The notes beneath the pieces were generated by a model. It did no database searches and was not told the origin of the DNA. It saw only the letters and a program-made list of their open reading frames with translations. Both the position numbers and the translations under genes were made by a program. DNA of 64,000 nucleotides from Pseudeuparius sepicola (lineage: Eukaryota; Arthropoda; Insecta; Coleoptera; Anthribidae), in the NCBI GenBank assembly GCA_963920635.1, contig OY987299.1:69980692-70044691 (forward strand). The letters run 5' to 3'. Shown one piece after another: positions 8,847 through 62,350 of the stretch; positions within the stretch are counted from its first letter, which is position 1, and the number at the start of each line of letters is the position of its first letter.

Positions 8847-9322
8847 CATAAATAAATATTTACCAGTGCAAAGCCGGGACAGGCCGCTAGTTTGATATAA
8901 GTAGAGGTTTTAATGATGCTGAATACAATTCTAAAATTAAATTTCTATACAAAATCGTTAATGTATTCTTATAATATATTTATCTTGAGTTCCTGTTTTA
9001 TGTTCACATTAATATTAGGTTAGAACTGGTTGAAAAAAGTATGTTTTTTAAATGCCCAAAAAAATTAAGATAGGTATATTTTTGAACTTTACTCGTACAC
9101 GAAAAGAGGTATTTCAACATTAATAACACATTTTGAGTTTGAAACGATGTAGAGACTTATCAAGAATACAATTATAAATAAAATGAATTCACATTTATGA
9201 TGTACACTGTATATTAGCGGATACTTGTATTAATTCGATTTTCGCTGCACTTTGATGAACCAGCTGCATTATTGTTGTTATAAAAAATACGGCCCGACTG
9301 AAAAGTTTTTCTTTTGTTCCAG

Positions 9323-9748
9323 GCGCACCAACGCAGCCACGCAAAAGAATCCGAAGATCCCTACCGTTGCAATATCTGTGCCAAGACCTTCGCCGTACCT
9401 GCCCGTCTAACTCGCCACTACCGCACGCATACTGGCGAAAAACCGTTCCGTTGCGAGTTCTGCAGCAAGAGCTTCAGCGTAAAAGAGAACCTGAGTGTTC
9501 ACAGGCGCATACACACCAAGGAAAGGCCCTACAAGTGCGAGGTATGTGCTAGAGCCTTCGAACACTCTGGGAAACTGCACAGGCACATGAGAATCCACAC
9601 AGGGGAGAGACCACATAAGTGTGCGGTGTGTTCCAAAACTTTCATCCAGTCGGGACAACTGGTGATACACATGAGGACGCACACGGGAGAGAAGCCCTAC
9701 GTTTGCGGAGTTTGTCAGAAGGGATTCACGTGCTCCAAACAACTTAAG
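9323..9748 (+). CDS. Kr-h1: Kr-h1 coding exon b (zinc fingers 1-6)
   Basis: The exon starts after TTGTTCCAG| with AHQRSH, completing finger 1. It encodes fingers 2-5 in full (CNICAKTF.., CEFCSKSF.., CEVCARAF.., CAVCSKTF..) joined by TGEKP-type linkers, and the first half of finger 6 (CGVCQKGFTCSKQLK). It ends in phase 0 at AAG|GTAAGG. Finger spacing is canonical and there are no stops or indels. The finger order and linkers match insect Kr-h1 rather than generic Krüppel-type proteins. The fingers form the DNA-binding domain. The 201-bp intron 9749-9949 splits finger 6. Confidence 0.93.
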
Positions 9749-9949
9749 GTAAGGGTAACGTTTCAAATAGTTAAACCAGTACCCTTGATATGAGTAGTTT
9801 CGTCTAGAATATCCTCATTATCAAATCCAGGAAGAGCAGAATCCATCGTGTGATCTTTGTAGTATCTTCCGCTTATGGAGGGTACTGGTTATATATTTTA
9901 TTAATCTAATTTTTGCGTATTTAGTCTTATTAAAACTTTTATATTATAG

Positions 9950-10606
9950 GTGCACTCTCGCACGCACACGGGAGAAAAGCCCTACAGCTGTGAGATCTGT
10001 GGCAAGGCCTTTGGCTACAACCACGTCTTGAAGCTCCACCAGGTCGCCCACTACGGTGAAAAAGTCTACAAATGCACAATCTGCAATGATACTTTCACTT
10101 CTAAGAAGAGTATGGAGGCTCACATTAAAAGCCACGCCGAAGGCGCGCCACCTACACCTCCAGCGGAGCCTTTATCAGTCACTGGAAGCGACAAAGAAAA
10201 CCTCACGGAGGCTCCGATTTATTTGAGACTTTCTCCACCTGCTCCTGGTGTGGAACTTCTTGCCGAAGCAGCCACGTCAGTTCCAGCCGCATTCTTGCGT
10301 CGTCCGTTATACTTTCCATCACCTCCAGTACCTTATACGCCGTTAACCAACGGCGATGATATAAGACGTCGTGTAGAAGCGGCGTTGGCAGTGGAAAACA
10401 TAGCGGAAGCACCTCCAACACCTCCAGAATCAACATCGCCAGTACCGTCAGTTTCGCCGCCTGTTTCACCTTCAGTATCGCTTCACCCAGAGCTGAGTTT
10501 ACCCCCAAGGAAAAGATCTAAAATGATCTTGAAATCAATGGAGGCGTCTGTGGGGCTGAGTCCAGTGCGATACAGTTCGGTCATACAGTACGCGCGGGCA
10601 TCTTAA
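9950..10606 (+). CDS. Kr-h1: Kr-h1 terminal coding exon (fingers 6-8 and C-terminal tail)
   Basis: After TTATAG| the exon begins VHSRTHTGEKP, completing finger 6, then fingers 7 (CEICGKAFGYNHVLKLHQVAH) and 8 (CTICNDTF..HIKSH), giving eight in total, the usual Kr-h1 number. A Pro/Ser/Thr-rich low-complexity tail follows, with repeated SPVPS/PPVSP segments, a basic PRKRSK patch that may act as a nuclear localisation signal, and a C-terminal SPVRYSSVIQYARAS close to the conserved end of insect Kr-h1. The TAA stop is at 10604-10606. GC content is higher than in the flanks. The gene looks intact from 7092 to here. Confidence 0.93.
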   Translation: MHSRTHTGEKPYSCEICGKAFGYNHVLKLHQVAHYGEKVYKCTICNDTFTSKKSMEAHIKSHAEGAPPTPPAEPLSVTGSDKENLTEAPIYLRLSPPAPGVELLAEAATSVPAAFLRRPLYFPSPPVPYTPLTNGDDIRRRVEAALAVENIAEAPPTPPESTSPVPSVSPPVSPSVSLHPELSLPPRKRSKMILKSMEASVGLSPVRYSSVIQYARAS

Positions 10607-16012: not shown

Positions 16013-17855
16013 GTGAAGTATGTTTAACGGGCCAGCACAAGTATGATACTTAATAAGCAGTTTTACTATATCGTTGGCCACCACTGTAATGGCCACCATA
16101 CATTGGGCCAGTATAATATCAGTATGTTGAACATCCGGCAATGTAACAGTGGCCGACCTCTGGCCAGTGTGACCTATTTGCATTGGCCCAGTATAGATTG
16201 CCACTGATTCGCCGTTACGGCAATTTCTGGCCAGCACCTAATCGGCCACAGATTCGCCGGATGAAAATGTTTGCTGGGTAGAGAGGACATACTTGGGGGT
16301 GATTTTGGGTGCAAAGTTTTCTTTGTCTGCCCGTTTTAAGGGTCTAAAAAATTAAAGTTTGACAAACCGAGCGGTATTTTGCCAATAAAATGAGAATTTC
16401 CCAAGTTTTCCAGTTCCGTTTCACGACAATAATACTGCAGCTAGAGAGGGCATACTTGGGGGTGACTTTTGGTGTAAACAGTTTTCTTTGTCTGCCCGTT
16501 TTAAGGGTCGAAAAAAATTAAAGTTTGACAAACCGAGCAGCATTTTGCCAATACAATGAGAATTTTCCAAGTTTTTCAGTTCCGTTTCACGACAACAATA
16601 CTGCAGCTAGAGAGGGCATATTTGGGGGTGACTTTGGGAGTAGACAGTTTTCTTTTTCTGCCCGTTTTAAGGGTCGAAAAAAATTAAAGTTTAACAAACC
16701 GAGCGGTATTTTGCCAATAAAATGAGAAATGTCCATGTTTTTCAGATCCGTTTCACGACAATAATACTGCAGCTAGAGAGGACATACTTGGGGGTGATTT
16801 TGGGTGCAAACAGTTTTCTTTGTCTGCTCGTTTTAAGGGTCTAAAAAATTAAAGTTTGACAAACCGAGCCATATTTTGCCAATAAAACGAGAATTTTCCA
16901 AGTTTTCCAGTTCCGTTTCACGACAATAATACTGCAGCGAGCGGTATTTTGCCAATAAAACGAGAATTTTCCAAGTTTTTCAGTTCTGTTTCACGAGAAC
17001 AATACCGCAGCTAGAGAGGACATACTTGGGGGTGACCTTGGGTGCAAACAGTATTCTTTGTCTGTCCGTTTTAAGGGTCGAAAAAAATTAAAGTTTGACC
17101 AACCGAGCGGTATTTTGCCAATAAAATGAGAATTTTCCAAGTTTTCCAGTTCCGTTTCACGACAATAATACTGCAGCTAGAGAGGGCATACTTGGGGGTG
17201 ACTTTGGGTGCAAACAGTTTTCTTTGGCTGCCCGTTTTAAGGGTCGAAAAAAGTTAAAGTTTGTCAAACCGAGCGGTATTTTGCCAATGAAATGAGAATT
17301 GGCCAAGTTTTCCAGTTCCGTTTCACGACAATAATACTGCAGCTAGAGAGGGCATACTTGGGGGTGACTTTTGGTGTAAACAGTTTTCTTTGTCTGCCCG
17401 TTTTAAGGGTCGAAAAAAATTAAAGTTTGACAAACCGAGCAGCATTTTGCCAATACAATGAGAATTTTCCAAGTTTTTCAGTTCCGTTTCACGACAACAA
17501 TACTGCAGCTAGAGAGGGCATATTTGGGGGTGACTTTGGGAGTAGACAGTTTTCTTTGTCTGCCCGTTTTAAGGGTCGAAAAAAATTAAAGTTTGTCAAA
17601 CCGAGCGGTATTTTTCCAATAAAATGAGAATTTTCCAAGTTTTTCAGTTCCGTTTATCGACAATAATACTGCAGCTAGAGAGGGCATACTTGGGGGTGAC
17701 TTTTGGTGCGAACAGTTTTCTTTGTCTGCCCGTTTTAAGGGTCGAAAAAATTTAAAGTTTGACAAACCGAGCGGCATTTTGCCTATAAAATGAGAATTTT
17801 CCAAGTTTTGCAGTTCCGTTTCACGACAATAATACTGCAGCTTGAGAGGGCATAT

Positions 17856-18228
17856 TCAACTTTAATATAAAGTTAAATTTGATTAACTATTTAAATACAG
17901 TAAACCAGGAAATAGAGTTAAATTTAAATTAAAAATTGGTTTGAAGCAAAAAGAAAAAGTCAAATTTTCTTTACAAATACTCTGACTGTTCAGCGCTATA
18001 GGTAGGTACTTTAAACTTTGATTCTTAAGTTTGAACTGAGTGTATCGTTGCTTACGCTCTAAGCGAGGTTGTAGTGGGGGTGGAGGCGAGGCTAGGGCTT
18101 CTTCTGGTCCTTTTCTGCTCGTAGAAGCGCTGTTGTTGTGGCTAGCGAGTATCTCAGGGGTTTCGCCAAAGTAGAGCTGACCAAGAAGTCACTCCTATGC
18201 ATACGCAGCTCCTCTCACGGTGGTCGGT
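17856..18228 (+). repeat. dispersed element interrupting the satellite array
   Basis: The 166-bp monomer pattern breaks off at about 17855 and resumes at about 18229. The intervening 373 bp begins CAACTTTAATATAAAG and ends near CTCCTCTCACGG, and is related to 1483-1752. This shows a transposition event into an existing array. Confidence 0.6.
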
Positions 18229-21200
18229 GGGTGTAGACAGGTTTCTTTGTCTGTCCGTTTTAAGGGTCGAAAAAAATTAAAGTTCGACAAACCGAGCGGT
18301 ATTTTGCCAATAAAATGAGAATTTGCCAAGTTTTCCAGTTCTGTTTGACGAGAACAATACTGCAGCTAGAGAGAACATACTTGGGGGTGACTCTGGGTGC
18401 AAACAGTTTTCTTTGTCTGCCCGTTTTAAGGGTCGAAAAAAATTAAAGTTTGACAAACCGAGCGGCATTTTGCCAATACAATGAGAATTTTCCAAGTTTT
18501 CCAGTTCCGTTTCACGACAATAATACTAGAGCTAGAGAGGGCATACTTGGGGGTGACTTTGGGTGCGAACAGTTTTCTTTGGCTGCCCGTTTTAAGGGTC
18601 GAAAAAAAATTAAAGTTTGTCAAACCGAGCGGAATTTTGCCAATAAAATGTGAATTTTCCAAGTTTTCCAGTTCTGTTTCACGAGAACAATACTGCAGAG
18701 GACATACTTGGCGGTGACTTTAAGTGTAGACAGGTTTCTTTGTCTGCCCGTTTTAAGGGTCGAAAAAAATTAAAGTTTGACAAACCGAGCGGTATTTTGC
18801 CAATAAAATGAGAATTTTCCAAGTTTTCCAGTTCCGTTTCACGACAATAATACTGCAGCAGCTAGAGAGGGCATACTTGGGGGTGACTTTGGGTGCAAAC
18901 AGTTTTCTTTGGCTGCCCGTTTTAAGGGTCGAAAAAAATTAAAGTTTGTCAAACCGAGCGGTATTTTGCCAATAAAATGAGAATTGGCCAAGTTTTCCAG
19001 TTCCTTTTCACGACAATAATACTAGAGCTAGAGAGGGCATACTTGGGGGTGACTTTGGGTGCGAACAGTTTTCTTTGGCTGCCCGTTTTAAGGGTCGAAA
19101 AAATTAAAGTTTGTCAAACCGAGCGGTATTTTTCCAATAAAATGAGAATTTTCCAAGTTTTTCAGTTCCGTTTATCGACAATAATACTGCAGTTAGAGAG
19201 GGCATACTAGGGTGGTGACTTTGGGTGTAAACAGTTTTCTTTGTCTGCCCGTTTTAAGCGTCGAAAAAAATTAAAGTTTGTCAAACCGAGCGGTATTTTG
19301 CCAATAAAATGAGAATTGGCCAAGTTTTCCAGTTCCGTTTCACGACAATAATACTAGAGCTAGAGAGCGCATACTTGGGGGTGACTTTGGGAGCAAACGG
19401 TTTTCTTTGGCTGCCCCTTTTAAGGGTCGAAAAAAAAAAAATTTGTCAAACCGAGCGGTATTTTGCCAATAAAATGAGAATTGGCCAAGTTTTCCAGTTC
19501 CGTTTCACGACAATAATACTAGAGAGGGCATACTTGGGTGACTTGGGTGCGAACAGTTTTCTTTGGCTGCCCGTTTTAAGGGTCGAAAAAAATTAAAGTT
19601 TGTCAAACCGAGCGGTATTTTGCCAATAAAATGAGAATTTTCCAAGTTTTCCAGTTCCGTTTATCGACAATAATACTGCAGCTAGAGAGGGCATACTTGG
19701 GGGGTAAGTTTGGGTGCAAACAGTTTTCTTTGTCTGCCCGTTTTAAGGGTCGAAAAAATTAATTAAAACAATACTGCAGCTAGAGAGGACATACTTGGGG
19801 GTGACTTTGGGTATAGACAGTTTTCTTTGTCTGCCCGTTTTAAGGGTCGAAAAAAATTAAAATTTGTCAAACCGAGCGGTATTTTGCCAACAAAATTAGA
19901 ATTTTAATTTTTTTTAACCCTTAAAACGGGCAGGCAAAGAAAAGTGTCTACACCCAAAGTCACACCCAAGTATTTCCTCTCTAGCTGCAGTATTGTTCTC
20001 GTGAAACAGTACTGGAAAACTTGGAAAATTCTCATTTTATTGGCAAAATACCGCTCGGTTTGTCAAACTTTAATTTTTTTCGACCCTTTAAACGGACAGG
20101 CAAAGAAAACTGTTTACACCCAAAGTCACCCCTAAGTATGCCCTCTCTAGCTGCAGTATTGTTGTCGTCAAACGGAACTGGAAAACTTGGAAGATTCTCA
20201 TTGTATTGACAAAATACCGCTCGGTTTGTCGAACTTTAATTTTTTTCGACCCTTAAAACGGGCAGACAAAGAAACCTGTCTACACCCAAAGTCACCCCCA
20301 AGTATGTCCTCTCTAGCTGCAGTATTGTTCTCGTGAAACAGAACTGGAAAACTTGGAAAATTCTCATTTTATTGGCTAAATACCGCTCGGTTTGTCAAAC
20401 TTTATTTTTTTAGACCCTTAAAACGGGCAGACAAAGAAAACTGTTTACTCCCAAAGTCACCCCCAAGTATGCCCTCTCTAGCTGCAGAATTATTGTCGTG
20501 AAACAGAACTGGAAAACTTGGAAAATTCTCATTTTATTGGCAAAATACCGCTCGGTTTGTCAAACTTTAATTTTTTTCGACCCTTAAAACGGGCAGACAA
20601 AGAAACCTGTCTACACCCAAAGTCACCCCCAAGTATGTCCTCTCTAGCTGCAGTATTGTTCTCGTGAAACAGAACTGGAAAACTTGGAAAATTCTCATTG
20701 TATTGGCAAAATACCGCTCAATTTGTCAAACTTTAATTTTTTAGACCCTTAAAACGGGCAGACAAAGAAAACTGTTTACTCCCAAAGTCACCTCCAAGTA
20801 TGTCCTCTCTAGTTGCAGTATTGTTCTCGTGAAACAGAACTGTAAAACTTGGAAAATTTCCATTTTATTGGCAAAATACCGCTCGGTTTGTCGAACTTTA
20901 ATTTTTTTCGACCCTTAAAACGGGCAGACAAAGAAAACTGTTTGCACTCAAAGTCACCCCCCCCCGTATGTCCTCTCTAGCTGCAGTATTGTTCTCGTGA
21001 AACAGAACTGGAAAACTTGGAAAATTCTCATTGTATTGGCAAAATACCGCTCAATTTGTCAAACTTTAATTTTTTTCGACCCTTTAAACGGGCAGACAAA
21101 GAAAACTGTTTGCACCCAAAGTCACCCCCAAGTATGTCCTCTCTAGCTACAGTATTGTTCTCGTGAAACATAACTGGAAAACTTGGAAAATTCCCATTTT

Positions 21201-22862
21201 ATTGGCAAAATACCGCTCGGTTTGTCAAACTTTAATTTTTTCGACCCTTAAAACGGGCAGACAAAGAAACCTGTCTACACCCAAAGTCACCCCCCGTATG
21301 TCCTTTCTAGCTGCAGTATTGGTCTCGTGAAACGGAACTTGAAAACTTGGAAAATTCTCATTTTATTGGCAAAATACCGCTCGGTTTGTCGAACCTTAAT
21401 TTTTTCGACCCTTAAAACGGGCACACAAAGAAACCTGTCTACACTCAAAGTCACCCCCCCCCCGTATGTCCTCTCTAGCTGCAGTATTGTTCTCGTGAAA
21501 CAGAACTGGAAAACTTGGAAAATTCTCATTGTATTGGCAAAATACCGCTCAATTTGTCAAACTTTAATTTTTTTCGACCCTTTAAACGGGCAGACAAAGA
21601 AAACTGTTTGCACCCAAAGTCACCCCCAAGTATGTCCTCTCTAGCTACAGTATTGTTCTCGTGAAACATAACTGGAAAACTTGGAAAATTCCCATTTTAT
21701 TGGCAAAATACCGCTCGGTTTGTCAAACTTTAATTTTTTCGACCCTTAAAACGGGCAGACAAAGAAACCTGTCTACACCCAAAGTCACCCCCCGTATGTC
21801 CTTTCTAGCTGCAGTATTGGTCTCGTGAAACGGAACTTGAAAACTTGGAAAATTCTCATTTTATTGGCAAAATACCGCTCGGTTTGTCGAACCTTAATTT
21901 TTTCGACCCTTAAAACGGGCAGACAAAGAAACCTGTCTACACCCAAAGTCACCCCCCCCCCGTATGTCCTTTCTAGCTGCAGTATTGGTCTCGTGAATCG
22001 GAACTGGAAAACTTGGAAAATTCTCATTTTATTGGCAAAATACCGCTCGGTTTGTCGAACTTTAATTTTTTTCGACCCTTAAAACGGGCAGACAAAGAAA
22101 CCTGTCTACACCCAAAGTCACCCCCCCCCGTATGTCCTTTCTAGCTGCAGTATTGGTCTCGTGAAACGGAACTTGAAAACTTGGAAAATTCTCATTTTAT
22201 TGGCAAAATACCGCTCGGTTTGTCGAACCTTAATTTTTTTCGACCCTTACAACGGGCACACAAAGAAACCTGTCTACACCCAAAGTCACCCCCCCCCGTA
22301 TGTCCTTTCTAGCTGCAGTATTGGTCTCGTGAATCGGAACTGGAAAACTTGGAAAATTCTCATTTTATTGGCAAAATACCGCTCGCTTTGTCGAACTTTC
22401 ATTTTTTTCGACCCTTAAAACGGGCAGACAAAGAAACCTGTCTACACCCAAAGTCACACCCCCGTATGTCCTTTCTAGCTGCAGTATTGGTCTCGTGAAA
22501 CGGAACTGGAAAACTTGGAAAATTATTATTTTATTGGCAAAATACCGCTCGGTTTGTCAAACTTTAATTTTTTTCGACCCTTAAAACGGGCAGACAAAGA
22601 AAACTGTTTACACCCAAAGTCACCCCTAAGTATGCCCTCTCTAGCTGCAGTATTGTTCTCATGAAACGGGACTGGAAAACTTGAAAAATCATCATTTTAT
22701 TGGCATATTACTTTTCAGAGACAGTGTTCAGCGGTAAGCGCTCTAAACCCAAAACCGTTGCTGAGCCTGCGGTTCACGAAGCCCGAGAAATAGAATTCCT
22801 CTTCAACATTCGCTACACCCAAAACCGTGGCTGGCAAAAGCGTGGCTTAGTTCACACAAACG

Positions 22863-26790: not shown

Positions 26791-26916
26791 ACGATAGCTA
26801 GTACCATCACAAATAGCATGCTTTGGCTCTAATTTACAATTTATTTATCTTACCTACCTCAAGAAGCAATGGATATACTATGTAAATTTGTGTACACATA
26901 TTCATCAGTGTATATA

Positions 26917-43109: not shown

Positions 43110-43589
43110 TTTTGAGATGTAGATGTAGATAGATATGTTGATTTCTTCGAAACTAAATCCAATCAGGACAGCTTGCCGCTGCAAAATAAAATGTTTTCAA
43201 GCGAATAATAACGTTTGCTCCGACATATTTTATTTTTATATGATGCATTTTTCGCGCTGTAAATTTTGTTAGTATCTAGAAATTATTTGCTAGGTTACTG
43301 GAACGTATATAGGTCAGGGTATCGAAACATGCGAAGACTAAATGCAGATACCACTTGTGCCGCCGTTTTTTCCTGGTAAAAAGAAAGTGAGTGGAATCCT
43401 GTCGGCCGCGGTGAGTCGACAGTAAAGGGGGGTGTGACGTCATGGCTTGCAATTTGCTAAGGCGCGAGATTCCACGTTCAGGGGGGTCGTCAGTGAGAGC
43501 ACCCCAATTTGGTCACGTTTTTACCACGTTTTAGGCCCCATAAGAAATACATGGAGAAAGTGGGCTCGTACGGGCATAGCCTATCTACT
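43110..43589 (+). repeat. direct repeat, copy 2
   Basis: Closely matches parts of 40260-40995, including the CCATAAGAAATACRTGGAGAA stretch, and stops abruptly at 43589 where the retrotransposon sequence begins, marking the 5' truncation point of that insertion. Confidence 0.65.
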
Positions 43590-44350
43590 GGAGTTCTCCA
43601 GGGACATCGGAATGCTGTTTGGACTGGACAATATCATCCGGGGAAAGCTCGAACAAAGCGCACACGAGATGCAGGACGGCCAGGAGATCGAAGCAATGAG
43701 CAAGGGAGATACATACAAGTATCTCGGGATGAAACAAGCTCAAAGGATAGACCATCGAACAATGAAGACTGATTTAACGAATGAATTCATCAAGAGAGTA
43801 AGACAAGTAGTGCGAACTGATCTTAACAGCAGGAATTTGTTTAAGGCCCTGAACACGTATGCGTGCTCTGTACTCAGCTATTCGTTCGGAATAGTAAATT
43901 GGACCAACACGGACATCAACAACCTGCAACGAAAAGTTAGGACACTACTGACAAAAGCTCATAAACATCATCCCCGTAGCGCCGTAGAAAGAACAACTCT
44001 GCCACGTCAACTAGGAGGAAGAGGATTGGCAGATCTCAGCAAGCAATTGGACCAACAAATATTAAATCCGCGTAATTATTTCTACAGGCAGGCCAACAAC
44101 TCCACACTACATAGGGCTATATGCGGAGCAGACGTCTCAACACCGCTACGTCTGACGGAACACGAGCGTCAAAATCACCACCGAACCGACAACGATAAAC
44201 TACAGAGGTGGTGGGGGAAGCCGCTGCACGGGAGGCATCCTAATGAGGTTAACCAGGAACATGTCGACAAGTTAGCGTCGAACTATTGGCTGACCTCGGG
44301 ACGAATGTTCCCCGAGACGGAAGGCTTCCTACTGGCCATACAAGATCAGG
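43590..44350 (+). pseudogene. non-LTR retrotransposon ORF (R2/R4-like), upstream half, cut by the Polinton
   Basis: Encodes the region downstream of the reverse transcriptase catalytic site: a KYLGM motif, then YSFGIVNW and RQLGGRGLADL typical of the thumb/linker of R2/R4-group elements. The catalytic YxDD is absent because the copy is 5'-truncated at 43590. The frame runs through ..AIQDQ at the Polinton target duplication and resumes on the other side at 62351. The second copy at 63166 shows the uninterrupted sequence, confirming the insertion site. It is a dead fragment. Confidence 0.8.
44345..44350. repeat. Polinton target-site duplication, left (ATCAGG)
   Basis: ATCAGG directly precedes the element and is repeated at 62351-62356. 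The unoccupied site (AGATCAGGTTATACC) is seen once in the second retrotransposon copy near 63370. A 6-bp duplication is the Polinton signature. Confidence 0.95.
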
Positions 44351-44439
44351 AGTAGTATAGCAAAGGGGATTCTGGGGCAGAAGTGACGTTTACAAGATGG
44401 CCGCCAAGGCGGGAAATTTGAAAATGACCTTGACCTGCG

Positions 44440-45060
44440 GGTTCAATGAACTTTAAGGGGTCACCTTGTTAACCTTGACCTGAAGGTCAATGAACTTTAA
44501 GAGGTCACCTTATTAACCTTGACCTGCAGGTCAATGAACTTTAAGAGGTCACCTTGTTAACCCCTGAAGGTCAATGAACTTTAAGGGGTCACCTTGACAC
44601 GTGGCACTTTTTCTGGGAACGGAAGTGACATCACAAGATGGCCACCAAGGCGGGAAATTTGAAAATAACCTTGACCTGCGGTTTCAATGAACTTTAAGGG
44701 GTCACGTTCCATTAACCTTGACCTGAAGCTTATCTAGAGGTCAAGGGGTTACCAGATCGATAACCTTTAAGGGGTCATTGACCCGCGGGTTCAATGAACT
44801 TTAAGGGGTCACCTAGTTAACCTTGACCTAAAGGTCAATGAACTTTAAGAGGTCACCTTGTTAACCTTGACCTGAAGGTCCATGAACTTTAAGAGATCAC
44901 CTTGTTAACCTTGACCTGAAGGACTATGAACTTTAAGAGGTCACAGTTAACCTTGACCTGAGGGTCAATGAACTTTAAGAGGTCATCTTGTTAACCTTGA
45001 CCTGAAGGTCACTAAACTTTAAGAGGTCACCTTGTTAACCTGAAGGTCAGTGATCTCATC
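44440..45060. repeat. TIR tandem array with AGGTCA-type half-sites
   Basis: Repeats of roughly 40-48 bp, each containing variants of TTAACCTTGACCTGAAGGTC, AATGAACTTTAAGAGGTCAC. Seven copies fit the inverted-repeat, 1-bp-spacer ecdysone-response consensus (AGGTCAATGAACTT at 44484, 44528, 44568, 44832; G-variants at 44440, 44788, 44962). The right TIR has a matching array at about 61890-62280. Binding is inferred from sequence only. Confidence 0.7.
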
Positions 45061-45228
45061 ACCTTGACACGTGGCACCTTGATATAAAAAACGTAAGCAA
45101 AAATTATGCAGATGTTTGCACTAAAACAGTTGACGTAGCATTTAGGTGGGGGGCATTGGGGTTATAAGGAGGACGCCGTTGGGAGAGCTCACTATACCCA
45201 GTCAACAGTGCTTGAATAATATTGAAAT

Positions 45229-45531
45229 ATGTCTTTTCTGAAACAGTTGAACAAAAATAACTTCGTAAAAGAAATTGTGAGTGCAAGAGAGTTAGTGGTT
45301 GGTGAAAAACATAAAATTTTATCTTTTAGAAGAATTGAAACAAGGTACGGGGAGAAAGTGTTCGTCGAATTTGAAAACTTTCAAACTGCGCTACCTGCAC
45401 GGTTTGTAAAAGAATTGACGTCTGAACGCATTGAAGACATAAGCCGGGAAATCACCAACGGAAAGAAGATCTTCTTGACGAGTCTGGGCCTCATTGGTAG
45501 GACAACGAATATTAAATTTGAGGAAGAATGA
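45229..45531 (+). CDS. TIR-borne conserved small protein, left copy
   Basis: A 100-residue ORF starting MSFLKQLNKNNF. An identical ORF except for one Lys/Glu change near residue 9 lies in the right TIR. The protein is charged with alternating short beta-prone stretches (KILSFRRIETRYGEKVFVEF), which could suit a small beta-barrel nucleic-acid-binding fold, but I do not recognise a family with confidence. A TATA-like GATATAAAAAAC lies at 45081, about 145 bp upstream. Its stop overlaps the next start as ATGA. Preservation of both copies while most Polinton genes are broken suggests recent gene conversion or function. Confidence 0.7.
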   Translation: MSFLKQLNKNNFVKEIVSARELVVGEKHKILSFRRIETRYGEKVFVEFENFQTALPARFVKELTSERIEDISREITNGKKIFLTSLGLIGRTTNIKFEEE

Positions 45532-45680
45532 ATCCCACTGACAAGAGGCGACGCAGACAACACTACAAAAGAAGATTGGAATTTTATCTAAGATCTCTTC
45601 AAAATTTGAAATATGAAATTCAAATGTATGAAATAAATAAAAAGTTCAAAAACATAAATTTAGAAAATTGTAAAAAATAA
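45528..45680 (+). CDS. TIR-borne small basic coiled-coil ORF, left copy
   Basis: A 50-residue ORF beginning in an ATGA overlap with the upstream stop. The N-terminus is very basic (DKRRRRQHYKRR), followed by a predicted helix rich in Leu, Tyr and Lys. The basic patch suggests nucleic acid binding or nuclear targeting. The right-TIR counterpart has an early stop at codon 25, so only this copy is full length. Function unknown. Confidence 0.5.
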   Translation: MNPTDKRRRRQHYKRRLEFYLRSLQNLKYEIQMYEINKKFKNINLENCKK

Positions 45681-45766
45681 AATGTGAAACCTGGTCAATC
45701 TATGATTTACCCCTACAAAATTGAAACTCAAATCTGAATGTTCCGATTGCTTCTGAGCGCCGAACA

Positions 45767-45802
45767 TATAAATACGTCCAAGTGCATTTGACAGGATTCA
45801 TT
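45767..45802 (+). promoter_or_regulatory. TIR inner-edge core promoter, left
   Basis: TATAAA at 45767-45772 followed 33 nt later by an arthropod-type initiator (TTCATTG, A at 45800). It directs transcription inward towards the DNA polymerase gene. The right TIR has the same layout. Spacing fits a TATA/Inr promoter; activity is inferred. Confidence 0.6.
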
Positions 45803-51744: not shown

Positions 51745-52657
51745 TTATTGCTCTCTATCCACGTGAGATTTGTCAAGACCAAGCCACCGAACTAAAACTT
51801 TTTTTCCTTTCTTACGTAACACTTTTTCAACTAGATAGACGTCGGGATTAACCGTTTTCTGTAGTTCTTCAGCGTAGAATCCACCCCTTATGGGACTTCC
51901 GTTCATATCTTCAACCAAATATGTTGCGGGATTGGTGATTTGAACCCTCACAATTTTAAACAATTCAGTAGTCCAGTTGGGGGTATAACCTTTGTTAAAA
52001 ACGTGCTTCATTTTGCTGATCCTAACTATATCACCAACATTAAATTTTCTATTACCACAAGTCTTCAAGTGGCTATAGACGTTTTTTAATAACCGCTTTT
52101 CGCAACTTTTGCTTACATCTTTAGGTTTCATTTGTGTAGTGCGATGTTTTTGACTATTATAATCATCTGTTAAGGTAGGCAATACATCGATCCATCTATA
52201 TTTTCAGCTCAAACTGAAAAATTTAAAAAGCTTTTCCTTCAAAGTACGTATCACTCTTTCAACAATGGCAGCTTTCTTGACGCTAAATGTGCTATAGTGA
52301 TTAATGTTATACGCTCCCATCAACTGTTTGAAATTCCTTTCCGTGATCAGTTTGAAGGTTTTTCGGACACCGCCGTCCTGAACTTTTAAGGATCTCTGCA
52401 AACGCTCTCGTAACCTCTTCTCCAGTTTTCGTTTTCAACGGTTTACACCAAACAAATTTTGAGAAAGCATCAATAACGACAAGTATAAACTTACAATTTC
52501 TATTATAGGATTTATACTGATCAAGTTGTCCAAGATCGGCTTGCCAGAGATCGTCCAGCCCTTTGATGATAGTTCGTCGTTGAGTATAATTTTTGCGTGC
52601 AGGCTTATGAAGCTCTTTAACTATTTGAATTTTTTCTTTTGAGTGATTGGAGTTCAT
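51745..52657 (-). pseudogene. int: Polinton retroviral-type integrase, broken
   Basis: Catalyses insertion of the element and explains the 6-bp duplication. The catalytic core is readable: first Asp in DLWQADL, second Asp in QTDHGKEF, and Glu in KAAIVERVIRTLKEK, the latter after a frameshift near 52340. An in-frame TGA at 52204-52206 separates the core from the C-terminal part (51745-52182), which has an SH3-like segment (FNVGDIVRISK, GYTPNWTTELF) and a chromodomain-like end (YLVEKVLRKKGK..RWLGL) that stops prematurely. The start overlaps the preceding ORF by ATGA. At least two, probably three, lesions. Confidence 0.92.
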
Positions 52658-54296: not shown

Positions 54297-54958
54297 CTAT
54301 TGTCCAGACCTTATATATTTGTCGAATCCCTGTCGATAACGTCCCTCGTTTATGCTAAAGTCTTTCACGATTACCAAAGAGACACAATTATCATTCCAAC
54401 AATGGCGACATATATCTTTAAGCTGTTCGAAGGTTAGGTCAGGTGACACGTGCTCTTCATACACGTGTCTGAGATTTGTCTCATCCTGCTTAAAAAGTAC
54501 TATAAAGTTGCAGTTATCTCGAATCAACTGCTTGGGTATCTTGGAGTAAGTCTGGCAAAGATACACCGCGTCAATACCCTTATGTCTGCACATAGAATAA
54601 TATTCCCTGATTTTATTTTGCTTGTCGCAAGCCACATCGTCGAAAACAATGAGGGAATTTTCTCGAGCATCAGATGGATCTATTAGATCATCGCTGGCTT
54701 TGAATGGAAAATATCCGATACAATCAATATTTTTTAGAACATCTTGTAGTAGCCGATATTTTTCCTGATAGAGCGATTTGCTATATACATACACGTTTTC
54801 AAATTTAAAGTTAAAAGTGCGTTTGTTTTTCCACATCCACAAAAAATTCCACGAATTGAATTTGGAAATAGTTTACCATGTTTCGACTTAAGCTGCTTCT
54901 CAGTCAGAACATCTAAGTTCTCAATAGGGAGCGATGTTTGCTGTTGTTGGATTTGCAT
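54297..54958 (-). pseudogene. Polinton packaging ATPase (FtsK/A32-type), frameshifted
   Basis: Probable genome-packaging ATPase. The 5' segment (54734-54958) contains a P-loop GIFCGCGKTN, and the 3' segment (54297-54842) contains a Walker B SLIVFDDVACD, then YLCQTYSKIPKQLIRDNCN, a conserved sensor-type region. The two lie in different frames with the shift near 54810. The first Gly of the P-loop motif is displaced or substituted compared with the usual GxxGxGKT spacing, so nucleotide binding may also be impaired. Gene order next to the capsid cluster fits. Confidence 0.88.
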
Positions 54959-56586: not shown

Positions 56587-56988
56587 TCTTCCGAGTCAAA
56601 CTAGCAACTGGGAGTTTATTGAGGTAAGCGGTCTTACATCAAGTTTCTGACTACTTCGCTTAGCGGCAGATATTCCATAAGATTGTCGTGAATAATTAAG
56701 CAATAGGCTCGAGTGTCTTTAGGAAAACCGACATCTTTTTCTATGTCTAGTTTGACGTCATCAGTGCTGGTCTTAAGGGTCTCATTTCTTCTAGAACAGT
56801 CGATAACAAACAGAGTTACGTTATCTTTGTAATCTTTGTAATCTAGCAGTGGACGTTTCTCACGAACGCCCATAACACTTTAATAAAATTCAACGTAACT
56901 ATTGTAAGCTTCTAAGTAATCATTATTTTTGAAATCCAGCCTCTGCCTTTCCAATGGGAAATATTCACCGTTTAGAATTAACCTCACG

Positions 56989-57002
56989 TCTGATATATTT
57001 AT
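56989..57002. repeat. 14-bp target duplication of the insertion, left
   Basis: TCTGATATATTTAT is found here and at 58259-58272, at the exact points where capsid coding sequence stops and resumes. A duplication of this length suits target-primed reverse transcription. Confidence 0.9.
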
Positions 57003-57199
57003 ATACTATATAAAGAATCAATCAATTACCGAAGCAATTAATTGATCATGGAGTATTATAATGATAGTACACCCGAAGGTGCGGGACAAAGCCACTGGTC
57101 TTGATCGGCAAAGGCTCACGCCACAAATACCGAGACCCGCCATCTGCCGTCTCCACGGCGTCGGTTAACCAACCGAAAACATCGATAGAATAAAAAGAG

Positions 57200-57269
57200 T
57201 GATAGTCGACCATATACAGTACTGTTTCGGGACGGTAATCCCTCATCAGTATGGCTCACCCGACTATCA
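57200..57269 (-). ncRNA. hammerhead ribozyme (type I), copy 1
   Basis: Reverse complement of the copy at 57874, with the same conserved core CTGATGA and GAAA, stem II GGGA/TCCC, and minimal stem III. Predicted cleavage is between 57215 and 57214 on the minus strand. Confidence 0.9.
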
Positions 57270-57499
57270 AGTGGTGTAGACAAACGTGCCTAGACGATAG
57301 ATTTACTATATAAAGAATCAATCAATTACCGAAGCAATTAATTGATCATGGAGTATTATAATGATAGCACACCCGAAGGTGCGGGACAAAGCCACTGGTC
57401 TTGATCGGCAAAGGCTCACGCCACAAATACCGAGACCCGCCATCTGCCGTCTCCACGGCGTCGGTTAACCAACCGAAAACATCGATAGAATAAAAAGAG

Positions 57500-57569
57500 T
57501 GATAGTCGACCATATACAGTACTGTTTCGGGACGGTAATCCCTCATCAGTATGGCTCACCCGACTATCA
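57500..57569 (-). ncRNA. hammerhead ribozyme (type I), copy 2
   Basis: Identical to copy 1, displaced by exactly 300 bp. Predicted cleavage is between 57515 and 57514 on the minus strand. Confidence 0.9.
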
Positions 57570-57873
57570 AGTGGTGTAGACAAACGTGCCTAGACGATAG
57601 ATTTACTATATACCGAAACAGTACTGTATATGGTCGACTATCACTCTTTTTATTCTATCGATGTTTTCGGTTGGTTAACCGACGCCGTGGAGACGGCAGA
57701 TGGCGGGTCTCGGTATTTGTGGCGTGAGCCTTTGCCGATCAAGACCAGTGGCTTTGTCCCGCACCTTCGGGTGTGCTATCATTATAATACTCCATGATCA
57801 ATTAATTGCTTCGGTAATTGATTGATTCTTTATATAGTAAATCTATCGTCTAGGCACGTTTGTCTACACCACT

Positions 57874-57943
57874 TGATAGTCGGGTGAGCCATACTGATGA
57901 GGGATTACCGTCCCGAAACAGTACTGTATATGGTCGACTATCA
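57874..57943 (+). ncRNA. hammerhead ribozyme (type I), copy 3
   Basis: Core CTGATGA (57894-57900), stem II GGGA-TTACCG-TCCC, GAAA (57914-57917 region), stem III ACAG-TA-CTGT, then A17 with predicted cleavage between 57928 and 57929. Stem I pairs CCATA with TATGG next to the core and TGATAGTCG with CGACTATCA beyond an internal loop, the site of tertiary contacts in natural type I hammerheads. The stem III sequence ACAGTACTGT is a perfect palindrome, allowing a dimeric (double) hammerhead. Confidence 0.93.
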
Positions 57944-58173
57944 CTCTTTTTATTCTATCGATGTTTTCGGTTGGTTAACCGACGCCGTGGAGACGGCAGA
58001 TGGCGGGTCTCGGTATTTGTGGCGTGAGCCTTTGCCGATCAAGACCAGTGGCTTTGTCCCGCACCTTCGGGTGTGCTATCATTATAATACTCCATGATCA
58101 ATTAATTGCTTCGGTAATTGATTGATTCTTTATATAGTAAATCTATCGTCTAGGCACGTTTGTCTACACCACT

Positions 58174-58243
58174 TGATAGTCGGGTGAGCCATACTGATGA
58201 GGGATTACCGTCCCGAAACAGTACTGTATATGGTCGACTATCA
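58174..58243 (+). ncRNA. hammerhead ribozyme (type I), copy 4
   Basis: Identical to copy 3 and 300 bp downstream. Predicted cleavage is between 58228 and 58229. Copies 3 and 4 would together release a 300-nt RNA. Confidence 0.92.
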
Positions 58244-58258
58244 CTCTTTTTATTCTAT

Positions 58259-58272
58259 TCTGATATATTTAT
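58259..58272. repeat. 14-bp target duplication of the insertion, right
   Basis: Second copy of TCTGATATATTTAT, immediately followed by uninterrupted capsid coding sequence on the minus strand. Confidence 0.9.
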
Positions 58273-59044
58273 GTGATCGAATTTTGTGGGATCGCTTTTG
58301 CTATTTTCTTTGCGATTAGTTTGAAAACCAACTACAACAAACCTAGGAGATTCCACTGCTGCAGATGTTTTCACTGACCAAATTTCTTTACAAGAGTTTG
58401 CCGTAAGAGTTGGCAATTCATGTATTTCCCACTTTCTAAAGGGTATAATAATGGGTTGATCTCGCTTTATTTGTTTCACTTTTAGTTCTATATTGGTAAT
58501 CAATAATTCTGCTGTCAACTCTGTAGTGGAGTCGGCAGCTTTCTCTAGTAGCAGGCAATTATTGTCGTTGCGGGCTCGAATTAGTCTTATTGTTTGCTTA
58601 CCGCAAATGGCATATTGATAATCATTAAAGAGCCCAAACAAATGTTTAAGCGGTATTCTTACGCTGAATGTTCCGTCCTTATTCAAGATTGGCGCATTGT
58701 CCTTGGGATAGCTCCAACTTGAAGTTACCAAGTACTTTTCATCGTCAGGAGAATAACATAAATATCCCCTCATGGCACTCACAACTCCAGGATCTCTCAC
58801 CATTTCCAACTCTTTGCCATTAAGTTCTTATGAGACAGAATCAAAGAAAAACGATGCACCATTGTTTACAAGCTTGCAAGTACCAGTGCCTGATTTCTTG
58901 TTTATTTTACCTTTTATGAAAATTGCAGCATCATACATCAACAACCAAGCATCACCTTGATTAATGGTTATTTCTACGATATCATTGTTCATGAAGGACT
59001 TTACGAACGGATAATAGGAGCGTGCTTCTAAACGTTGAATAGAT

Positions 59045-59248
59045 TCATCGAACTTTGGTTTCTGATGCACGTCGAACACTTGATGCGTCAATGACATGAT
59101 AACCGAGATATTTTAAGAACAAGCGATTTTCAGGTGTAAGACTCGTATTACGATCTCTACTCTTGTACAGCTCTGCTGGTTGTGAACTTCTCGGCCGACC
59201 GACACTCCTTTTATATGGTCGGTACCTACCATCAAAAACTAACACCAT
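59045..59248 (-). CDS. small basic conserved Polinton protein
   Basis: A 67-residue ORF between the penton-like gene and the major capsid gene. It starts inside the last codons of the former (17-bp overlap) and overlaps the start of the latter by 53 bp. It is basic and Pro/Ser-containing (RPYKRSVGRPRSSQPAEL) with a conserved-looking SLTPENRLFLKYLG segment that I recall in comparable small Polinton ORFs. It may be a DNA-condensing or scaffold component of the virion; this is a guess from charge and location. Intact. Confidence 0.5.
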   Translation of the reverse strand: MVLVFDGRYRPYKRSVGRPRSSQPAELYKSRDRNTSLTPENRLFLKYLGYHVIDASSVRRASETKVR

Positions 59249-59960
59249 TTCTCTTCAGCTCCAATCTGATTATGATTTCTTCCCCGTTGAGATTTACCGA
59301 TCTTGAATCTTGATCTAAAAGTTGCACTGTAATATTGTCGATGGTTTTCCTACTGACAGGCAAATAAATTAGATTCCTAGGTTCGATATTGATACTGTAT
59401 CCCGGGTCTACTGTAGGCATAAACTCAAAAAGAGTATGCGAAGGTGCGTTGTTGTAATATGATCCCGAAATTAAATTGCACTCCACTCTTATTGTTACCA
59501 CTTGCACAATCTCTACTCGGAGGTCTAATTGATGTAAATCTCCGGATTTCAATATTTTATTGGAAAAGCCAAGCAATTTAGCTATAGTATCGGGCTGTTT
59601 AAAATTTACGTTATACAGAGATTTAAGTTCACACTTTAAAGTATTATTGTTAGGTTTCAACGAAAAAATTTCTTCTAGTTCTTGCTGATTATCCAGCGAA
59701 CTTCCTAGTTTTTTCTGAACGTAATTCTCAATATCCCGAATCTCATATGCTCCTGTCGGAATCTCAATTTCTATCTCGCTTCCTCTGTGATCTACGAAAT
59801 ATAGCTTGTTCTGTCCTCCCTCTATATTTGGAATTGAATTCCAAGTAGATAGAGAAATTAACGCTAGCGAATATTCGTACTGAGGATCTAGCTCAAGGGG
59901 CGGAAAAAACGATTTGGAGATGTAGCTACCGTTACCCGTCAAAGTAAACGTCTGCGACAT
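59232..59960 (-). CDS. penton-like minor capsid protein
   Basis: A 242-residue protein from MSQTFTLTGNGSYISK. The open frame extends 26 codons further upstream, but that part overlaps the protease end and is less protein-like, so I chose the inner Met. Beta-rich sequence with SKSFFPPLELDPQYEYSLAL and STWNSIPNI matches the single-jelly-roll minor capsid (penton base) protein of Polintons, which fills the capsid vertices. It sits directly between protease and major capsid genes as expected. One of the few undamaged genes here. Confidence 0.82.
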   Translation of the reverse strand: MSQTFTLTGNGSYISKSFFPPLELDPQYEYSLALISLSTWNSIPNIEGGQNKLYFVDHRGSEIEIEIPTGAYEIRDIENYVQKKLGSSLDNQQELEEIFSLKPNNNTLKCELKSLYNVNFKQPDTIAKLLGFSNKILKSGDLHQLDLRVEIVQVVTIRVECNLISGSYYNNAPSHTLFEFMPTVDPGYSINIEPRNLIYLPVSRKTIDNITVQLLDQDSRSVNLNGEEIIIRLELKRNGVSF

Positions 59961-59992
59961 GACTGAGCAAAAATATGATAATTTCTTCTGTT

Positions 59993-60481
59993 TTATAGGG
60001 TTTTTCCACGTAAAAATTCCAAACAGAGGTGTCCGCAATTTATTTCATCGTATGTTTGATACGAGTTATTGTTGTATACGATATTAGCATGTTTCCCCAA
60101 GTATAGGATCAGTTCTTTCGGTGGCTTCAGCGCCCCGAAACTATCGAAATACTCAACGTTGTTACCTCTTTTCTCATATGCTACCCAATGTGTTCCAGCA
60201 TTACTTTGGACGTCTAAATTCAAAATTGCCGATTCGTTTTTGTTTGGACCAAGTTTTGGAAGCGTGTCTCTCATAAAGACACCTCTAAAATAAGGTATTT
60301 TTATCTTTTTAGCGTAAAAAATTAAATCTTTATCCGTTAGAGGTCTATTGGGTAGCATCAATGGGAGTTTTTTCTTTAAATATAAACCGATTCCTCCGTG
60401 ATTATTTTCCTTTAAGTAAAGCCCAGATCCCGTTTTTCCAATAGCTTCCATTGCCCTATTATGACGTATTTGTTCATCCAT
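59993..60481 (-). CDS. adenovirus-type cysteine protease (capsid maturation)
   Basis: The maturation protease domain related to adenain/Ulp1. It contains GTHWVAY with the catalytic His, EYFDSFG with the acidic residue and the conserved CGHLCLEFL with the nucleophile Cys region, in the usual order and spacing. The N-terminal 40 residues (RHNRAMEAIGKTGSGLYLK) match the linker between a hydrophobic virion segment and the protease, so this ORF is probably the C-terminal part of a larger polyprotein whose upstream portion (60482-61137) is in other frames. The catalytic domain itself is uninterrupted. Start at 60481 is provisional. Confidence 0.85.
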   Translation of the reverse strand: MDEQIRHNRAMEAIGKTGSGLYLKENNHGGIGLYLKKKLPLMLPNRPLTDKDLIFYAKKIKIPYFRGVFMRDTLPKLGPNKNESAILNLDVQSNAGTHWVAYEKRGNNVEYFDSFGALKPPKELILYLGKHANIVYNNNSYQTYDEINCGHLCLEFLRGKTL

Positions 60482-61140: not shown

Positions 61141-61176
61141 ACTGATTCCAGTCAAATGCACTTGGACGTATTTATA
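61141..61176 (-). promoter_or_regulatory. TIR inner-edge core promoter, right
   Basis: TATAAA at 61176-61171 and an initiator TCAGT with A at 61143, 33 nt apart, on the minus strand. The ATG of the capsid-cluster gene follows only six nucleotides after the predicted start site. The left TIR carries the same layout, so each end drives one strand. Confidence 0.65.
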
Positions 61177-61340
61177 TGTTCTGCGCTCAGAAGCAATCGG
61201 AACTTTCAGATTTGAGTTTCAATTTTGTAGGGGTAAATAAAAGATAGACTAGATTTCATATTTTATTTTTTACAATTTTCCAAATTTATGTTTTTGAACT
61301 TTTTATTTATTTCATACATTTGAATTTCATATTTCAAATT

Positions 61341-61415
61341 TTAAAGAGATCTTAGATAAAATTCCAATCTTCTTTTGTAGTGTTGTCTGCGTCGCCTCTT
61401 GTCAGTGGGATTCAT
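61341..61415 (-). pseudogene. truncated right-TIR copy of the small basic ORF
   Basis: Same ATGA-coupled start and basic N-terminus as 45528-45680, but codon 25 is a TAA (CAA in the left copy), leaving 24 codons. The sequence after it is still recognisable, so the stop is recent. Confidence 0.6.
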
Positions 61416-61714
61416 TCTTCCTCAAATTTAATATTCGTTGTCCTACCAATGAGGCCCAGACTCGTCAAGAAGATCTTCTTTCCGTTGGTGATTTCCCGGC
61501 TTATGTCTTCGATGCGTTCAGACGTCAATTCTTTTACGAACCGTGCAGGTAGCGCAGTTTGAAAGTTTTCAAATTCGACGAACACTTTCTCCCCGTACCT
61601 TGTTTCAATTCTTCTAAAAGATAAAATTTTATGTTTTTCACCAACCACTAACTCTCTTGCACTCACAATTTCTTTTACGAAGTTATTTTCGTTCAACTGT
61701 TTCAGAAAAGACAT
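61412..61714 (-). CDS. TIR-borne conserved small protein, right copy
   Basis: 100 residues, differing from the left-TIR copy at a single visible position (Glu for Lys near residue 9, MSFLKQLNENNF). Intact. It lies upstream of, and is transcribed towards, the capsid-cluster promoter. See the left copy for description. Confidence 0.7.
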   Translation of the reverse strand: MSFLKQLNENNFVKEIVSARELVVGEKHKILSFRRIETRYGEKVFVEFENFQTALPARFVKELTSERIEDISREITNGKKIFLTSLGLIGRTTNIKFEEE

Positions 61715-62350
61715 ATTTCAATATTATTCAAGCACTGTTGACTGGGTATAGTGAGCTCTCCCAACGGCGTCCTCCTTATAACCCCAATGCCCCCCATCTA
61801 AATGCTACGTCAACTGTTTTAGTGCAAACATCTGCATAATTTTTGCTTACGTTTTTTATATCAAGGTGCCATGTGTCCAGATGATGAGATCACTGACTTT
61901 CAGGTTAACAAGGTGACCTCTTAAAGTTCATTGACCTTCAGGTCAAGGTTAACAAGATGACCTCTTAGAGTTCATTGACCCTCAGGTCAAGGTTAACTGT
62001 GACCTCTTAAAGTTCATTGACCTTCAGGTCAAGGTTAACAAGGTGATCTCTTAAAGTTCATGGACCTTCAGGTCAAGGTTAACAAGGTGACCTCTTAAAG
62101 TTCATTGACCTTTAGGTCAAGGTTAACAAGGTGACCCCTTAAAGTTCATTGAACCCGCGGGTCAATGACCCCTTAAAGGTTATCGATCTGGTAACCCCTT
62201 GACCTCTAGATAAGCTTCAGGTCAAGGTTAATGGAACGTGACCCCTTATAGTTCATTGAACCCGCAGGTCAAGGTTATTTCCAAATTTCCCGCCTTGGCG
62301 GCCATCTTGTGACGTCACTTCCGCCCCAGAATCCCCTTTGCTATACTACT

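Follow-up and report, generated by a model that had tools for sequence, protein, structure and literature searches.

How does a DNA segment with hammerhead ribozymes on both strands come to lie within the capsid gene of a virus-like transposon, and what does its shape say about the way in which such an element returns from RNA to DNA? The question is raised by a locus in the beetle Pseudeuparius sepicola, in a 64-kb stretch of contig OY987299.1 that is referred to here, in its entirety, as the window. A sequence-only reading of this stretch had described four hammerheads in a segment bounded by a 14-bp target duplication and had proposed a retrozyme or Penelope-like RNA that parasitises a Polinton.

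Anatomy of the Insert

The insert spans 1256 bp (window 57003-58258) and is flanked by a perfect 14-bp direct repeat, TCTGATATATTTAT, whose copies lie at 56989-57002 on the left and at 58259-58272 on the right, just as the earlier reading had it. It is composed of a 300-bp unit with a GC content of 0.453, represented at 57629-57928 on the plus strand, with a numbering that starts at the predicted cut of the hammerhead, GTA^TATGG, between 57928 and 57929. A minus-strand array of 609 nt (57004-57612) runs through unit positions 203-300, 1-300 and 1-211, and a plus-strand array of 646 nt (57613-58258) through 285-300, 1-300, 1-300 and 1-30, such that each array is slightly longer than two laps and the layout is head-to-head with two 300-bp units per strand. 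The outer end of the right array is at unit 30 and that of the left array at unit 211, at two sites termed A and B below, and at the inner junction unit 285 meets unit 203. The copying is nearly perfect: all 646 bases of the plus-strand array equal the unit, and the sole substitution among the 1255 copied bases of the insert is at 57068. The sequence-only reading was therefore right about the segment, its duplication and its hammerheads, and is amended in that the arrays are head-to-head and that 57003, an A at the left junction, is a single nucleotide that does not match the unit. A frame scan found no start-to-stop frame of at least 100 amino acids inside the insert, and thus none of the reverse transcriptase or GIY-YIG coding of Penelope-like elements; a scan for Pol III boxes gave one B-box-like match and no A-box.

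Hammerhead Ribozymes

The four type I hammerheads lie at 57207-57257 and 57507-57557 on the minus strand and at 57886-57936 and 58186-58236 on the plus strand, and a pattern match, a stem-aware descriptor and a covariance model all place them there, which bears out the claim of two per strand at 300-bp spacing. The core matches are at 57215-57249 and 57515-57549 (minus) and at 57894-57928 and 58194-58228 (plus), and the spacing is exactly 300 bp within both pairs. Four matches were reached in none of 100 shuffles of the window. The descriptor, run over both strands of the 64 kb, returned the same four and nothing else, and 100 Markov-1 control sequences gave a mean of 0.04 matches with a maximum of 1. 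The covariance search that the earlier reading had called for likewise scored the four sites at 31.1 bits (E 5.3e-7), with a model that was built on 20 hammerheads from viral contigs and is not wholly independent, the contigs having been collected by a loose pattern that copies this very core. The next best match, at 26891-26916 on the minus strand (14.4 bits, E 0.11), is probably due to chance. Rfam reported no hammerhead in the window, even at E <= 10; this silence carries little weight because at the gathering threshold Rfam also reported none in three viral loci that contain descriptor-positive hammerheads. The same weakness attends its failure to report ribozymes of other classes.

Read by eye, the sequence has the parts of a canonical type I hammerhead with a helix III and an extended stem I: a CTGATGA core, a GGGA/TCCC stem II, a GTA cut site, a stem I of six pairs followed by a 6 by 1 internal loop and seven further pairs, and a helix III formed by a 10-nt palindrome, ACAGTACTGT. 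In amphibian retrozymes a short helix III favours cleavage of dimers, as reported in the accessible portion of PMC7229834, and by analogy a palindromic helix III would allow dimer cleavage here as well. For an isolated stretch of 71 nt, the predicted energy of the native hammerhead fold is -15.8 kcal/mol vs -26.0 kcal/mol for a rival hairpin, which is favoured if energy alone is considered. Across loci of the family described below, diversity is 0.0043 over the 35 positions of the core vs 0.0272 over unit positions 15-245, the run of positions that covers the whole hammerhead ranks as the tenth lowest in diversity among 300, and the exact core is retained in 120 of 146 full units. The opposite strand of the unit has no hammerhead by descriptor, so that each unit bears one, unlike viroid-like RNAs that have ribozymes on both strands.

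A Decayed Polinton as Landing Site

The gene that has been interrupted encodes a double jelly-roll (DJR) major capsid protein of a Polinton and is read on the minus strand. Upstream of the insert it occupies 58258-58809 (PF21738, E 1.1e-23), its frame resuming at 58813-59100 past one stop, and downstream of the insert it occupies 56637-57002 with one in-frame stop. The profile continues across the insert, from positions 27-210 on one side to two matches on the other, at positions 209-247 (E 0.026, short of the curated cut-off) and at 251-315 (E 2.5e-15), and this agrees with the claim that the capsid gene is interrupted, with the addition that the frame contains two further stop codons besides the insert. 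The aligned parts of the terminal inverted repeats lie at 44611-45800 (plus) and 61143-62331 (minus) and are 97.2% identical (1157 of 1190 positions). Between them, all on the minus strand, are an integrase fragment (rve, 52307-52657, PF00665, E 6.8e-9), a fragment of a Pox_A32-like packaging ATPase (54297-54842, PF04665, E 3.1e-6) and a further Polinton protein (59232-60038), probably the minor capsid protein to judge from its place, with 266 homologues. Popillia japonica and a Rickettsia endosymbiont of Ceutorhynchus are named among the 120 of these homologues that were listed. The organisms among the listed protein matches are nearly all beetles (Popillia, Anthonomus, Diabrotica, Callosobruchus and Acanthoscelides), together with the record of the Ceutorhynchus endosymbiont and one stink bug, Halyomorpha, although proteins of transposons say little about taxonomy. 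Relatives of the capsid protein were sought in viral contigs, and none was found. Adjoining the left end of the Polinton, a frame at 43447-44355 resembles the C-terminal part of beetle LINE-like reverse transcriptases, some of which carry a zf-RVT domain.

The Polinton that carries the insert is thus decayed, and the insert, with only one difference among its copied bases, is probably younger than the divergence of the terminal repeats. The nesting of a hammerhead retroelement in a Polinton, as first proposed, is what we find in the capsid gene; the further idea that the element parasitises Polintons in particular finds no such backing, since flanks that resemble this Polinton occur at only 3 of the 39 other loci that were fetched, and two of these 3 loci are nearly identical copies. 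It looks as though the Polinton is a chance landing site of the retrozyme. In the part of the literature that was accessible, the passages on hammerheads that stand beside mentions of Polintons (PMC6431247) concern Terminons of the Penelope type.

A Dispersed Family of Non-LTR Retrozymes

The host assembly (769 Mb, 16 contigs) was searched with the insert and with the monomer, and gave at least 301 matches with the former (40 of 678 candidates scored) and at least 223 with the latter (40 of 683 scored). The matches to the insert are spread over at least 12 contigs, so the genome-wide search for the 300-bp unit, proposed at the outset, disposes of the possibility that the unit exists merely as a local duplication of the assembly. 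Inverted repeats can arise as assembly errors, but the dispersal over contigs, the target duplications that differ from locus to locus and the ends that recur among them refute an artefact or a local duplication, whose probability we regard as negligible.

From the listed matches 39 stretches were fetched, which with the window made 40; one of these (L238) is a near-copy of another (L237) and was excluded, leaving 39 loci for analysis. Head-to-head layouts account for 26 of them and single-orientation arrays for 13, and none is tail-to-tail, although the head-to-head share is inflated because the query insert is itself head-to-head. Five later loci, the first 5 of 12 new ones visible among the best matches to the monomer, include one that is head-to-head. 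Four loci (L249, L252, L265 and L269) share at least 200 bp of flank in some pairs and were retained, given that their duplications differ; they are perhaps insertions into copies of one repeat. At L258, three retrozyme blocks of 907 bp recur at a spacing of about 365 bp in a composite tandem repeat.

Beyond the host, the insert had no match in a phage collection, and the exact hammerhead core had none in viral contigs. The loose hammerhead pattern was found in 108 stretches of viral contigs and in at least 119 of prokaryote contigs, at least 227 loci together, among which the descriptor-positive hammerheads are mainly viral and none of which contains a relative of the 300-bp unit at E <= 0.1. 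Several viral contigs (L002, L040, L073, L076 and others) bear several descriptor-positive hammerheads each.

The tandem unit is within the 170-400 bp range and has a GC content below 50%, its copies are numerous and dispersed, the target duplications exceed 4 bp, and no frame in the insert reaches 100 amino acids. By these features the insert is a non-LTR retrozyme, an animal element of known kind. Metazoan non-LTR retrozymes, as the sections at hand of Cervera and de la Pena 2020 (PMC7229834) and of PMC7761336 describe them, share with it the type I hammerhead, the tandem unit of about 170-400 nt, GC below 50%, lack of a coding frame, long target duplications and many copies; there they are described as tandem repeats, the head-to-head arrays and fixed starts of reverse transcription being what is seen here. 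Plant LTR retrozymes, to judge from the available part of PMC4918200, have in common that they are hammerhead retroelements with a circular RNA stage, which is presumed in the present case, and differ in their type III hammerhead, their LTRs with a primer binding site and a polypurine tract, and their 4-bp duplications. This identity was rejected on the grounds of the type I topology and of duplications of 10-16 bp. As to the alternatives posed by the sequence-only reading, the hammerhead retroelement is upheld and a Penelope-like element proper is not, there being neither a frame of at least 100 amino acids nor significant similarity to the two Penelope-like families of this genome that are introduced below.

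Recurrent Paired Ends and Target Duplications

The 39 loci offer 65 outer 3' ends, and these are far from scattered: 32 fall at A (unit 22-35), 24 at B (unit 205-220), 3 at a site termed B' (unit 185-191) and 6 at none of these. Thus 56 of 65 ends lie in windows A and B, which together cover 30 of the 300 unit positions and were drawn after the end positions had been seen; the five later loci add 6 outer ends to the count, and all 6 lie in A or B. One tiny inverted piece, at L294, with an outer end at neither site, was left out of the end count; read by eye, it is a short snap-back of unit sequence where an array of single orientation ends inward. Inner ends are scattered over the unit, with some excess at positions 91-120 (13 of 65).

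Not only do the ends recur, they recur as a pair. Among the 26 head-to-head loci, 20 have one end at A and one at B, 3 combine A with B', 2 combine A with another position and 1 combines B with another, and there is no A/A or B/B pair among them; if ends were independent and equally likely, the probability of this pairing would be 0.5^23 = 1.2e-7. The head-to-head loci that have a clear duplication of 12-16 bp, 21 in number, all conform, 20 as A/B and one (L260) as A/B', and the head-to-head locus of the later five (L296) has a 13-bp duplication and an A/B pair. When trimmed by the duplication, starts at A fall at unit 22-30 (24 loci, mode 27-28) and starts at B at 205-216 in all but one of the 21 head-to-head loci, the exception being L260 at 187, so that A (about 28) and B (about 210) are 182 nt apart on the unit.

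Duplications of at least 10 bp with at most one mismatch flank 24 of the 39 loci (10-16 bp, mode 12 bp) vs 5 of 200 displaced controls, and they are AT-rich (0.84 vs 0.67 in the flanks); 15 of the 39 loci show no clear duplication, and one does among the later five. Microhomology at the junctions averages about 1.8 nt for A ends and 1.6 nt for B ends vs about 0.4 in displaced flanks, an excess that is modest because counting in both directions is estimated to give about 0.9 by chance. At the junctions of the window insert itself, primer and template agree at 1 of 8 nt on the left and 2 of 8 on the right, both below the mean over the unit, and at 4 of 8 on the left if the extra A is included, a value equalled at 44 of 300 unit positions.

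Two ways of making an inverted insertion can be weighed against these ends. The first is that a LINE moves the same element by ordinary twin priming on its RNA, the fixed ends being no more than preferred internal priming sequences. Twin priming on LINE RNA produces inverted 5' parts, and in L1 it yields two target-primed cDNAs in opposite orientation, as would be needed here; normally, though, one cDNA starts from the 3' tail of the RNA and the other at a variable point anywhere, on a linear template and without laps. LINE-like remains are present in the window (43447-44355), the microhomology of 1.6-1.8 nt vs about 0.4 in the controls would suit such priming, and the accessible text of PMC4918200 compares the duplications of Nematostella repeats, 15 bp in length, with LINE duplications and finds them alike. 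That both retrozyme starts are fixed and internal, however, is what Penelope-like elements do (PMC11167929), and we consider the LINE route improbable. The second, snap-back self-priming of a single cDNA, was proposed for rotifer Penelope elements in the part of PMC3846280 that was available, and it would give a head-to-head layout, of which the small piece at the inner end of L294 may be an instance. It would nevertheless leave only one target-primed end, whereas the 21 duplicated head-to-head loci have recurrent start sites at both flanks, and in the window the second array, at 609 nt, is longer than the 428 nt that could at most be copied of the first from unit 203; snap-back is accordingly very unlikely to account for the arrays.

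A Probable Single Template for Two Arrays

If both arrays of a locus were written from one RNA, they should share their variants, and on the whole they do. The mean difference between the left and right arrays of a locus is 0.0118 (median 0.0067, zero in 11 of 26 loci), vs 0.0281 (median 0.0233) over 648 comparisons of arrays from different loci, and none of 10,000 random pairings was as low. The likeness is imperfect: in only 14 of 26 loci is an array closest to its own partner, and the two arrays of L269, L240 and L241 differ by 4.7-5.7%. Successive laps can be nearly uniform, as in L253, where 14 full laps on one side differ by 0.0014 and the other side has 3 identical laps, and they can also diverge, with lap differences within an array of 0.040 in L273 and up to 0.071 in L236. 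As far as can be read from sequence, these data on the whole fit a single RNA circle that was read repeatedly from two entry points, with later change, and homogenisation in the genome could add to the likeness of the arrays.

A circle is not the only template that could be lapped, and the same double priming might instead have used a linear, multimeric transcript that was read from an array in the genome. The genome does contain arrays, of up to 14 near-identical laps, that could be transcribed, and the laps differ by up to 7% in some loci, as they might in such a transcript. Against this, a conserved hammerhead should cut multimers, and in most loci the laps and both arrays are closely alike, so that we deem a linear template about as unlikely as the LINE route.

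Penelope-Like Elements as Candidate Helper

Penelope-like elements have been named as the likely helper from their co-occurrence with retrozymes and the shared type of hammerhead (PMC7229834, in the portion accessible), a proposal also made in the available text of PMC8969392 and of a 2020 review (PMC7761336); the review states, in the excerpt to hand, that retrozyme repeats have no motif from which a helper could be deduced. In the host assembly, a GIY-YIG search gave at least 132 matches (150 of 1365 candidates scored). One family, PLE1, has a period of 3136, three tandem periods and a minimal hammerhead-like motif, and its insertions end at two points about 31 nt apart, as do those of a second family, PLE2.

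Seven head-to-head Penelope-like pairs, a subset of the listed GIY-YIG matches, were examined. Five have perfect duplications (13, 12, 13, 13 and 14 bp), and each of the five has one end with the tail and one without. The remaining two, C9 (L287) and C7 (L288/L289), carry the tail at both ends and were excluded, one because inverted copies of one flank lie on its two sides and the other because it lacks a duplication. Penelope-like elements with one tail end, one no-tail end and a target duplication are found at L278, L282-L283, L285 and L290-L292.

This one-sidedness has precedents. Rotifer Penelope elements carry the tail on one of two inverted pLTRs (PMC3846280, from the part available), and a purified Penelope-like protein of the anole, which prefers AT-rich DNA, cuts either strand, extends both and begins at two sites within its RNA (PMC11167929). 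Against the present reading, the authors of that study noted no difference in start site between the strands and found that insertion in vitro did not require the ribozyme. More generally, the endonuclease-containing Penelope-like elements of these two sources, the first of them again in part, share with the retrozyme the head-to-head layout, duplications of about 8-14 bp, AT-rich targets, a type I hammerhead and two start sites, with the 'tail' on one inverted end. They differ in encoding a reverse transcriptase and a GIY-YIG endonuclease, whereas the retrozyme has no frame of at least 100 amino acids. Their hammerhead is minimal and that of the retrozyme fuller, and their start sites are separated by about 31 nt where those of the retrozyme are separated by 182 nt. 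The retrozyme thus has the insertion anatomy expected of Penelope-like machinery, that is, a head-to-head layout, a duplication of 12-14 bp and two start sites used as a pair. Because the Penelope-like elements of this genome show the same end asymmetry in 5 of 5 duplicated pairs, they are likely to be its helper. What speaks against mobilisation by them is the difference in spacing and the lack of shared sequence, in that the retrozyme has no significant similarity to PLE1 or PLE2 (best E 0.53 and 0.25); two 6-nt words, TTCTAT at A and at the PLE1 tail end and AGTAAA near B and near the PLE2 no-tail end, are too short to weigh.

A Model for Integration

The units, hammerheads, duplications, recurrent paired ends and variants common to both arrays can be read directly from the DNA, and from them we reconstruct a pathway in which the cleavage, the circle, the helper and the order of steps are inferred. 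Transcripts of the 300-bp unit would cleave themselves by the type I hammerhead, and the cleaved RNA would be closed into a 300-nt circle. An endonuclease-reverse transcriptase, most likely of an EN-containing Penelope-like element, would cut AT-rich DNA with a stagger of about 12-14 nt, and the two 3' ends of the cut would then prime on one circle, one at A (about 28) and the other at B (about 210). Each cDNA might travel around the circle for anything from a fraction of a lap to about 15 laps, without a fixed stopping point. Joining of the two cDNA ends would give a head-to-head array within the duplication, and where only one cDNA is kept the outcome would be an array in a single orientation that has one end at A or at B. 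We regard this account, a non-LTR retrozyme of which one RNA circle is primed at A and B by both cut 3' ends with a Penelope-like helper, as the probable one.

A more specific version, which we hold to be only slightly better than an even bet, is that the circle bears two dedicated entry sites for reverse transcriptase that form an obligate pair, one for each cut strand, and that a dimeric complex of the Penelope type writes both cDNAs; the same pairing would explain why Penelope insertions have a tail on one side. In either form, the paired ends suggest that Penelope elements, too, integrate by way of both strands, with their two start sites working as a pair.

As far as the sources at hand extend, the kind of element and the proposal of a Penelope-like helper were already known, and in the accessible passages of the retrozyme literature no earlier account of head-to-head retrozyme arrays or of paired starts was found. 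The paired recurrent ends provide a concrete signature of how animal retrozymes re-enter DNA, they link the retrozyme to Penelope-like machinery by anatomy and not by co-occurrence alone, and they define two sites and one protein family for testing in vitro.

Other Features of the Window

Elsewhere in the window, a 166-bp tandem repeat forms two inverted arrays at 16279-19860 and 19903-22705, with about 40 bp between them; the hammerhead descriptor has no match in this region (16279-22705), and the arrays are possibly the terminal repeats of a foldback-like element. C2H2 zinc-finger frames at 9314-10606 apparently belong to a host gene.
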